Shown one piece after another: positions 33,354 through 61,815 of a DNA stretch of 64,000 nucleotides; position 1 is the first letter of the stretch; the number at the start of each line of letters is the position of its first letter. The notes beneath the pieces were generated by a model. The model had not been told where the DNA came from. It searched no databases and saw only the letters and a program-made list of their open reading frames with translations. Origin of the DNA: Proteiniborus sp. DW1 (lineage in GTDB: Bacteria; Bacillota; Clostridia; Tissierellales; Proteiniboraceae); the NCBI RefSeq assembly GCF_900095305.1, contig NZ_FMDO01000029.1:1-64000 (forward strand), written 5' to 3'. Made by a program: the position numbers and the translations under genes.

Positions 33354-33513
33354 TTTTATGACCTAACCCGATTGTTTCGGATGCTTTTCTGAAAGAATCG
33401 TAGGTAGGTCAAACGCACCGAGCACCAACCCTATTGTAGGTTTATGATAGGAGTGTCCGCTAGGACCAAATTTATGGAGGATAGTCGAGCAAATAAATTT
33501 GTGTTGCAAGACT
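33354..33513 (+). repeat. Structured repeat element, copy A (with 41-nt insertion)
   Basis: About 160 nt sharing its frame with copy B at 33969. TGACCTAACC pairs with GGTAGGTCA around an inner CGATT...AATCG hairpin. An invariant stretch, GTAGGTCAAACGCACCGAGC, continues to ACCAA. A second arm, CAAATTTAT/ATAAATTTG, is closed by GCAC...GTGTTGC. Relative to copy B it carries an extra 41 nt (33429-33469) that themselves form CCTAT/ATAGG and GTCC/GGAC hairpins. It ends 41 nt before the DUF1292 start. It may be a cis-regulatory leader or a small palindromic mobile element. Confidence 0.75.
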
Positions 33514-33554
33514 GTGGGAAAAGTATGAAATAAATAATAAAGGAGAATGAAAAT

Positions 33555-33920
33555 ATGACAGACAATAAACATAAAGATGGTTGCTGCTGTGGACACGACC
33601 ACGAGCATGAACATGATGGATGCGGCTGTGGTCATGACCATGAAGAAATGGAAATAATGACATTGACTTTAGATGATGGTACTGATATGGAATGTCAGGT
33701 TTTAGGAGTATTCGGAGTAGAAGACAAAGAGTATATAGCTCTACTTCCTTTAGAAGAGGAGAATGTCTTACTATACAAATATAGTGAAACTGAAGAGAGT
33801 ATAGAACTAGAAACTATTGAAGATGACAGCGAGTACGACCTTGTTGTAGAAGCCTTCTATGAATTATTCAGCGACGATGAAGATTATGAAGATTATGACG
33901 AAGAGGAAGACGAAGAATAA
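33555..33920 (+). CDS. DUF1292 protein with His/Cys-rich metal-binding N-terminus
   Basis: Protein of 121 residues. The first 32 residues are packed with CCCGHDHEHEHDGCGCGHDH, a probable transition-metal-binding tail. Residues 35-95 match the DUF1292/UPF0473 fold (LTLDDGTDMECQVLGVF...YIALLPLEEENVLLYKY), and the last 25 residues are strongly acidic. Ordinary DUF1292 proteins lack the His/Cys tail in most Firmicutes. AAGGAG lies nine nt before the ATG. The gene lies between two copies of the structured repeat and ends in a terminator. Function is unknown; metal storage or delivery is a guess from composition. Confidence 0.8.
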   Translation: MTDNKHKDGCCCGHDHEHEHDGCGCGHDHEEMEIMTLTLDDGTDMECQVLGVFGVEDKEYIALLPLEEENVLLYKYSETEESIELETIEDDSEYDLVVEAFYELFSDDEDYEDYDEEEDEE

Positions 33921-33935
33921 ACTAGGCTAAAATAT

Positions 33936-33972
33936 AAGTACTTCGGGGTAGTAACCGAGGTACTTGTTTTTT
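33936..33972 (+). terminator. Terminator after the DUF1292 gene
   Basis: Eleven-base-pair AAGTACTTCGG/CCGAGGTACTT stem with one wobble pair, eight-base loop, then GTTTTTT. Its T-run abuts copy B of the structured repeat. Confidence 0.9.
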
Positions 33973-34087
33973 ATGACCTAACCCGATTTTCTGAATGCTT
34001 TTTTCAGAAAATCGATGGTAGGTCAAACGCACCGAGCACCAAATTCATGTGAGCGATAGCGAGCAAATGAATTTGTGTTGCGAGACT
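33969..34087 (+). repeat. Structured repeat element, copy B (short form)
   Basis: About 119 nt. The same P1 (TGACCTA/TAGGTCA) is present, with a fully paired inner hairpin CGATTTTCTGA/TCAGAAAATCG and the same invariant core through GCACCGAGCACCAA. The terminal arm is CAAATTCAT/ATGAATTTG, where one pair is C-G instead of the T-A of copy A. It ends 24 nt before the M18 aminopeptidase start. Confidence 0.75.
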
Positions 34088-34111
34088 TCAATTAGTATAG
34101 GAGGGGAAAAC

Positions 34112-61611: not shown

Positions 61612-61815
61612 TAGTAGCGAACGAAACTTAAATAAAATACACACTCACGGTTTCGGACATGAAAAATTCTATAGCTCATTCCGATGAAAAATCCTACAAC
61701 TTGCAAACTCGCTACACTCAAACAGTGCAAGTTGCTTAACGGATTTTTCATCTACATTCGCTAAGAATTATAATCATGTCCTGCAAATGTTCGCTTAGTA
61801 TTTTATTTAAGTTTC
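61612..61815. repeat. Nested palindromic intergenic element of about 200 bp
   Basis: Occupies most of the 361-nt gap between divergent genes. Nested arms, outer to inner: 61623-61639 with 61799-61815 (17 bp, perfect), GGACATG/CATGTCC, GATGAAAAATCC/GGATTTTTCATC (61683-61694 with 61741-61752) and CAACTTGC/GCAAGTTG. The apex holds AAACTCGCTACACTCAAACA. It has no open frame. It is probably a mobile palindromic repeat or its remnant. 61489-61611 and 61816-61849 show only promoter/leader sequence. Confidence 0.7.

Follow-up and report, generated by a model that had tools for sequence, protein, structure and literature searches.

The window analysed here, a 64,000-nt stretch of the Proteiniborus sp. 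DW1 genome, contains two copies of one folded element, hereafter copy A and copy B, each lying just upstream of a gene. Do such copies act as leader RNAs of the genes behind them, or do they mark a repeat that moves? A preliminary description of the window offered a leader RNA and a palindrome mobilised by a Y1-type transposase as equally good readings. In this study, the mobile element was favoured, and the leader RNA of certain genes was not. The explanation that we favour, and regard as probable, is a non-autonomous mobile DNA element aimed at the T-tracts of intrinsic terminators, whose folded strand would be recognised by a putative enzyme acting in trans.

Two copies of one element in the window

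Both claimed copies were found by a covariance model, R1, which also sets their bounds (Table 1). The 26-nt core that they were said to share, GGTAGGTCAAACGCACCGAGCACCAA, is exact in both and occurs exactly twice in the window; a 24-nt piece of it, searched with up to three mismatches, gave 2 matches in the window and 0 in each of 100 shuffles. Measured against 200 shuffles each, the fold has a z of -7.1 in copy B and of -3.6 in copy A. The compensatory change from T-A to C-G in the terminal arm is seen in the sequence, and the 41-nt insertion of copy A, likened earlier to an optional domain, recurs as domain D1 in other units (17 of the 143 aligned); a second such domain, D2, was found in 2 of the 143. 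The gene after copy A was named DUF1292 and that after copy B an M18 aminopeptidase in the preliminary description. Position just upstream of a gene is true of both window copies and fails as a rule: genus copies lie a median of 96 nt from the next sense ORF, with 16 of 67 within 50 nt, by rough ORF calls. The preliminary description had named a known Rfam family, a matching IS end or covariation limited to one pair as grounds against its reading. Neither copy is matched by an Rfam family at gathering score, and only implausible families appear up to E 10; the results on the other two points are given below.

Table 1. Location of the folded repeats and associated features in the window.
Feature	Position	Strand	Remarks
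Copy A of the folded element, with optional domain D1	33358..33516	+	Covariance model R1, 87.5 bits, E 5.7e-16
Copy B of the folded element, beginning directly after a T-run	33973..34090	+	Covariance model R1, 136 bits, E 8.1e-27
T-run immediately 5' of copy A	33354..33357	+	Empty site CATACTTTTTAGGGTATG here in sister species G002
Optional domain D1 (41 nt, hairpins) within copy A	33427..33467	+	
26-nt core, copy A	33403..33428	+	Common to both window copies
26-nt core, copy B	34017..34042	+	Common to both window copies
Terminator-like hairpin 3' of the upstream gene (DUF1292 in the preliminary description)	33936..33965	+	
T-run between the terminator-like hairpin and copy B	33967-33972	+	
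Family B copy (larger folded repeat)	61623..61815	-	

Architecture and covariation of the fold

The element is about 118-121 nt long and non-coding, and consists of a long 5' hairpin followed by a bulged 3' hairpin, P3. The 5' hairpin is formed by P1 (TGACCTA/TAGGTCA), whose pairing is confined to the 5' half of the element, with the variable stem P2 as its cap. P3 and the terminal hairpin are bordered by conserved tandem G-A motifs, two in all, whose four G-A/A-G pairs are each retained in 102-107 of 124 units; extra hairpins are optional. In three loci (L026, L029, L032), P3 is absent directly after AAAC, as though one hairpin had been cleanly deleted.

Two alignments were used to examine this fold. 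The first (A1), which is the basis of model R1, was aligned without a model and takes in 44 of the 49 distinct units that a script had detected; both partners vary in 23 of its 32 consensus pairs, and pairing is kept in 96.0% of its cells, versus 85.9% in shuffles. The second (A2), with 143 units (141 distinct) from 100 loci, was fitted to the model and therefore leans towards structure; here 25 of the 32 pairs change on both sides, with 476 such cells against 127 in shuffles, and 95.0% of cells are paired; shuffles reach 84.4%, and sliding the partner by 1-3 columns leaves no more than 42.0%. The fold of the element is real, and its covariation goes far past the single pair of the preliminary description. 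P2 (columns 13-42 of A1) varies between loci yet stays paired, and the rest is conserved. Copying from one P2 arm to the other, that is, quasipalindrome correction, could mimic selection for pairing; a covarying fold kept for long could also mean function.

Tandem G-A motifs are formed on one strand only, so the sense strand was taken as the folded strand, be it RNA or single-stranded DNA. Among the 141 distinct units, stem mismatches of the G-U (G-T) type outnumber those of the A-C type by 160 to 103, or by 103 to 69 (16 columns versus 11) once one doubtful column and the 17 rows exceeding 130 nt are omitted, an excess in the direction of an RNA form but too weak to prove one. Inspection of the two ends, 5' TTATGACCTAAC and 3' ...GAGACTGC(G), revealed no inverted match, that is, no terminal inverted repeat.

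Copy number and host range

Within the genus, all three genomes have R1 matches at E <= 0.01: G002 holds 72 of them, the own genome 51 and G001 27, counts that rest on the best 150 candidates per genome and include a few weak and antisense matches. A BLAST search of the own genome with copy B returned 58 matching pieces at E <= 10. Across the order, where filters were stricter and scoring stopped at the best 14 candidates of each genome, matches reaching E <= 1e-4 are present in 95 of 249 genomes, which belong to families f1, f4, f5, f7, f13 and f19. An even sample of the class (391 genomes) yielded 8 genomes matched at E <= 1e-6, of which 7 belong to the order and 1 lies outside it (G553). 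A pattern scan of genome contigs gave 51 stretches, under the names Tissierella, Sedimentibacter, [Clostridium] ultunense and Schnuerera, Tissierellia, Clostridiales or Firmicutes bacteria, and one MAG named Alkaliphilus. Viral contigs held zero exact matches to the pattern, and blastn of copy B against plasmids and phages gave zero matches. A search of open-licence papers showed no title on the folded element among the matches listed. The covariance-model search that had been proposed to separate a repeat from a leader RNA yields tens of copies with unrelated neighbours, which supports the repeat and speaks against the leader.

Eight contigs of G001 (C13, C17, C19, C28, C43, C48, C49 and C56) start or end about 500 nt or less from a copy. 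This points to short-read assemblies being broken by the element and to copies going undetected in this genome. In f4, a divergent copy (L304, 68.8 bits) lies between two similar genes, which on their sequence look like phage tail-type genes, and a near-equal E-value is found in many f4 genomes.

Copies are tied to intrinsic terminators

The 143 units form 113 arrays, and the upstream sequence was usable for 111 of them. A terminator-like hairpin, defined as one of -10 kcal/mol or better ending at most 11 nt before the element start, abuts the 5' end of 77 of the 111 arrays (59 of 78 in the genus, 18 of 33 in other genera), compared with 12 of 400 control T-runs from the same loci. The base 5' of the element is T in 103 of 111 arrays. 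Most copies have one orientation and a fixed 5' end, (T)TATGACC, placed in the T-run of an intrinsic terminator; others follow a tRNA gene or are set into a small hairpin's loop. For 34 of the 111 arrays the test distance contains no strong hairpin, among them copy A, which lies within a small inverted repeat and has no terminator in front. Several f19 copies have neither T-run nor hairpin.

Among 60 loci scanned with Rfam, 14 T-box leaders were found directly upstream of the element in 13 loci (L006, L008, L013, L077, L078, L081, L082, L083, L086, L130 with two, L146, L147 and L151), and other leaders in the same position were FMN (L020), cobalamin (L154), Moco (L021, L122) and PyrR (L134). 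In these 60 loci no family covers a copy, the PyrR match of L134 touching only the first 4 nt of the copy there. At T-box, FMN, cobalamin and PyrR leaders of several genera, the element was observed between the terminator and the gene. A tRNA gene stands immediately upstream in 7 loci (L087, L091, L092, L098, L120, L144, L145), and the G553 match from outside the order is also directly behind a tRNA gene. Copies in G008 and G037 lie just past what we take, from its sequence, to be the 23S end; the L123 copy lies behind a 5S gene in opposite orientation, and those of L128 and L143 are insertions within hairpin loops.

The next gene is in sense with the element in 67 of the 78 genus arrays having a called neighbour. 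Two gene neighbours are met repeatedly, the first in 5 genomes and the second in 3, with T-box leaders upstream; judging by sequence, these are presumably the prolyl- and isoleucyl-tRNA synthetase genes. In G002, copy orientation flips near 0.6 and 2.5 Mb, and within each half a single direction prevails, to which 45 of 50 clusters conform. This is the pattern that would be expected if copies were co-oriented with replication.

Empty sites, shared sites and the leader RNA reading

At the site of copy A, sister species G002 reads CATACTTTTTAGGGTATG, and the window reads CATACTTTT, the element and AAAAGTATG. The terminator of another copy of the own genome (L007) is also empty in G002. In addition, 20 G002 sites were sought in G000 and G001 by their downstream flank alone, so that orthology on the upstream side is presumptive. 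Fifteen could be read in G000, where 9 lack the element, 5 carry it (by BLAST) and 1 holds a remnant, three further site matches without a locus being outside these 15; in G001, 15 of the 15 sites read lack it. Clear empty terminators include those matching G002 sites 2431468, 1026869, 615989, 3341221 and 3362453, and at site 1022316 the G002 copy splits a terminator-hairpin loop that is whole in G000. Since the empty-site species are about 80% identical, these junctions are not base-exact. The copies were inserted, copy A included, as the empty sites of sister species show.

Insertion did not leave a general target duplication. A TTTAT duplication looked promising in L129, L131 and L147 and was dropped because it is not general: the 81 right flanks examined have no common copy of the left flank, 1 beginning with TTTAT and 2 with TTAT.

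A cis-regulatory, riboswitch-like leader RNA of the downstream genes has to be weighed against these data. It would agree with the conserved, covarying sense-strand fold and its tandem G-A motifs, with the prevailing sense orientation towards the next gene and with the place of copy A, which by eye has a promoter-like stretch before it and its gene's RBS behind it. However, tens of copies stand ahead of unrelated genes, some lie between tRNA genes, sister species have empty sites, and the neighbour that copies have in common is the upstream hairpin, not the downstream gene. The fixed association with a downstream gene expected of a riboswitch was not found, neighbours being largely unrelated. 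We consider this reading very improbable and reject it as the main explanation in view of the number of copies, the unrelated genes downstream and the empty sites. Altogether, copy number, empty sites, reuse of the same terminators and indifference to the gene favour a mobile element over a leader RNA.

Many sites are filled in two or three species, and the terminator occupied by copy B holds a unit of a different allele in G002. With the best-matching unit of the other site used in every comparison, the mean identity of shared-site units is 0.78 in 15 comparisons and 0.79 in a subset of 12 (the three values outside it being 0.76, 0.66 and 0.82), and random cross-species pairs have a mean of 0.78 (sd 0.08, n=2233). 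Because shared-site units are no more alike than random ones, either the same terminators were hit repeatedly or units were replaced by gene conversion, which could also explain shared sites with unlike alleles.

A related proposal is that a host function keeps the copies, for instance as insulators or as stabilisers of RNA 3' ends behind leaky terminators, and that spread is secondary. The occupation of the same terminators in several species, the two recurrent neighbours with their T-box leaders and the intact folds between diverging flanks are all in its favour. It is rather unlikely all the same, given that shared-site units are no closer than random ones, that so many G002 sites lack the element in G000 (9/15) and G001 (15/15), and that loss is seen as remnants.

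Tandem arrays and possible copying from RNA

Two units are present in 24 of the 113 arrays and three in 2 of them. A recognisable 3' end is missing from 18 of the 143 units, and among the 124 distinct units with a 3' end, 43 are directly followed by a whole or partial next unit, which most often starts after GGAAA (13 cases) or GGGAA (7). Arrays often end in a truncated unit. Mean identity is 0.86 between units within an array (23 pairs) and 0.78 between units from different loci of the same genome (1929 pairs).

These arrays bear on the possibility that insertion is mediated by RNA, with element RNA joined, copied or primed at the 3' ends of terminated mRNAs, tRNAs or rRNA and a reverse transcriptase fixing the product as DNA, much as group IIC introns make use of terminators. 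A 5' end located mostly at transcript 3' ends, the sense orientation, the 3' truncations and the arrays with a partial last unit, which resemble copying from a fixed start, all fit this scheme, and RVT_1 is present in 14 of the 17 genomes tested. Nevertheless, G241 has at least 14 element matches and no RVT_1, which led us to reject a linkage to reverse transcriptase; no group II family in Rfam matches up to E 10; the insertions within the hairpin loops of L128 and L143 are not at RNA ends; and plain deletion could give the truncations. We therefore rate the scheme as quite unlikely. A SINE-like bacterial element, inserted from the transcript 3' end or terminator hairpin by a trans enzyme that copies a circular or tandem template, would produce arrays whose 5' start is fixed and whose 3' end is cut off, and seems to us just as doubtful.

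The search for a mobilising enzyme

Inspection of 641 ORFs near elements revealed no mobile gene recognisable by eye in the 25 largest clusters. The mobiliser suggested in the preliminary description, a Y1 transposase (IS200/IS605-type, RAYT) that would move a REP-like element by single-strand transfer 3' of a short T-rich target, is one candidate. It would suit the lack of a consistent target duplication, the T-rich 5' target and the hairpins at both ends, and Y1_Tnp frames of about 250-335 aa are found in eight element-bearing genomes (G000, G002, G008, G200, G201, G220, G241 and G248). However, Y1_Tnp occurs in 15 of the 17 genomes tested, both with and without the element (46 matches), and no element was found at E <= 1 within about 2.5 kb in the 20 regions that hold 23 of these 46 matches, the 6 matches in the own genome all being among them. 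Moreover, G001 has 27 element matches and no Y1_Tnp match, and G016 and G031 show the reverse, Y1 genes with no element seen. The Y1/RAYT linkage was thus rejected for the regions examined, where the repeat does not flank Y1 genes, and a Y1 mobiliser, though conceivable, is on balance unlikely.

IS1272 encodes a transposase. An IS1182/IS1272-type DDE transposase moving the element in trans would account for the kind of target and the missing duplication, both reported for IS1272 in the accessible part of its description (PMC4923244), and the DDE_Tnp_1_6 search found two intact-looking 521-aa frames in G002. On the other hand, DDE_Tnp_1_6 has no match in G000 and G248, both of which bear the element, and the linkage to an IS1182-type transposase, not being consistent, was rejected. 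In BLAST searches, units matched the fetched Y1 and IS1182-type loci, 20 loci for the IS1182 reading, at chance level only, so that no matching IS end was seen at the loci examined. Published IS1272 insertions, as far as that description extends, delete part of the hairpin, and here the upstream hairpin is mostly whole. Such a transposase is therefore an improbable mover. Among the families tried, neither a mobilising enzyme nor an autonomous parent of the element came to light. The mover may have been lost, may come from a family outside those tried or may be a host protein.

We infer that the element is mobilised in trans through its folded single strand, recognised next to a DNA hairpin. 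In the mechanism that we propose, a trans-acting enzyme would recognise the folded single strand of the element and insert it 3' to a hairpin in the DNA, on a strand probably exposed during replication or transcription, and the 3' side would later be eroded by deletion. Effects on neighbouring genes would be by-products, a folded segment transcribed by read-through only having come to lie between the terminator and the next gene. An excised circle, if formed, would be expected to have the junction GACTGC-TTATGACC.

A second folded repeat

The window also carries a copy of a larger folded repeat, family B, of which the own genome yields 21 BLAST pieces. Loci of this family are L027, L033, L040, L170, L179, L262, L264, L265, L267, L268, L270 and L277-L281. 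In L027, L033, L170 and L179 the 121-nt element lies inside family B, between CCGA and AACCG or variants of them, and in the window copy, L262, L264 and L270 family B reads straight through without it. Most inspected copies have outer inverted arms of 12-20 nt that are locus-specific yet pair, some imperfectly. Since neither the window copy nor its arms are present at the corresponding place in G002, the arms probably arrived with the family B element. A possible pseudoknot was noted by eye at the 5' end. Rfam gave no convincing match for family B.

Comparison with known systems

The element shares some features of its behaviour with MITEs, others with BOX elements and yet others with group IIC introns. 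It is short, non-coding, multicopy, strongly folded and inserted, as is a MITE in the strict sense, and lacks the terminal inverted repeats and target site duplication of one; a parent IS with matching ends, looked for at the fetched Y1 and IS1182-type loci and by eye among the 25 largest neighbour clusters, gave chance-level matches and no recognisable mobile gene. The bcr set of Bacillus cereus is described, in the accessible portions of two reports, as MITE-like repeats of 100-400 bp, with tens of bcr1 copies per genome, often in UTRs and with a TTTAT motif at the site (PMC6542083, PMC3446304). Like the element, bcr1-bcr3 are non-coding and show a narrow host range, and bcr1 has tens of copies. 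However, TTTAT on both sides is exceptional here (1 of 81 right flanks), and terminator targeting is not mentioned in those portions of the bcr description, with which our comparison was made by description and not by sequence.

According to the part of the source available, BOX of Streptococcus pneumoniae is modular and folded, with optional inner modules, intergenic and cotranscribed in places (PMC3049150). The element resembles it in being modular, folded and intergenic with optional inner modules, again by description rather than sequence. The same partial source gives BOX IS-like terminal inverted repeats (PMC3049150), which the element does not have, and unlike BOX as described there, the element forms tandem arrays of whole units and uses the terminator T-tract as its site.

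Group IIC introns are reported to insert after intrinsic terminators in the accessible part of one paper (PMC4424553), a preference that recalls the hairpins abutting the arrays studied here (77/111 versus 12/400 controls). The element differs in its length of about 120 nt, in encoding no protein and in matching no group II family of Rfam to E 10. IS1272/TnSha1, of the IS1182 family, targets terminator hairpins, makes no target duplication and reuses the same hairpin in the portion of the report at hand (PMC4923244). All three traits are shared by the element; by that same account, IS1272 inserts in either orientation and deletes part of the hairpin, unlike the element. REPs are given, in the excerpt available, as palindromic, extragenic, possibly non-autonomous repeats, traits shared by the element, and as 20-40 bp long, compared with about 120 nt here; no Y1 gene was found near the element in the regions examined, and no Y1 gene flanked by the repeat, as REP/RAYT would have it, was seen (0 matches at E <= 1 in 20 regions). 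As the element failed tests of membership in strict-sense MITEs, REP/RAYT and group IIC introns, and was compared with BOX and bcr1 by description, we file it under none of these classes.

Implications

An element that is folded, modular and outside Rfam has been dispersed by insertion and shows a strong association with terminators and further kinds of transcript 3' end. Small mobile elements rarely have so well-defined a target, here the T-tract of an intrinsic terminator, and the two others that we met in papers, as far as the accessible parts describe them, are larger and of known kinds (group IIC introns, PMC4424553; IS1272, PMC4923244). A strongly folded, non-coding element of 120 nt that shares this preference, spread over one order and absent from Rfam, is a natural test of how terminator DNA hairpins are recognised. 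Because its strong covariation goes with dispersal and not with a particular regulated gene, it also sets a trap for the discovery of RNA motifs. For the hosts, attenuators are altered: T-box, FMN, cobalamin and PyrR leaders bear the element between the terminator and the gene.
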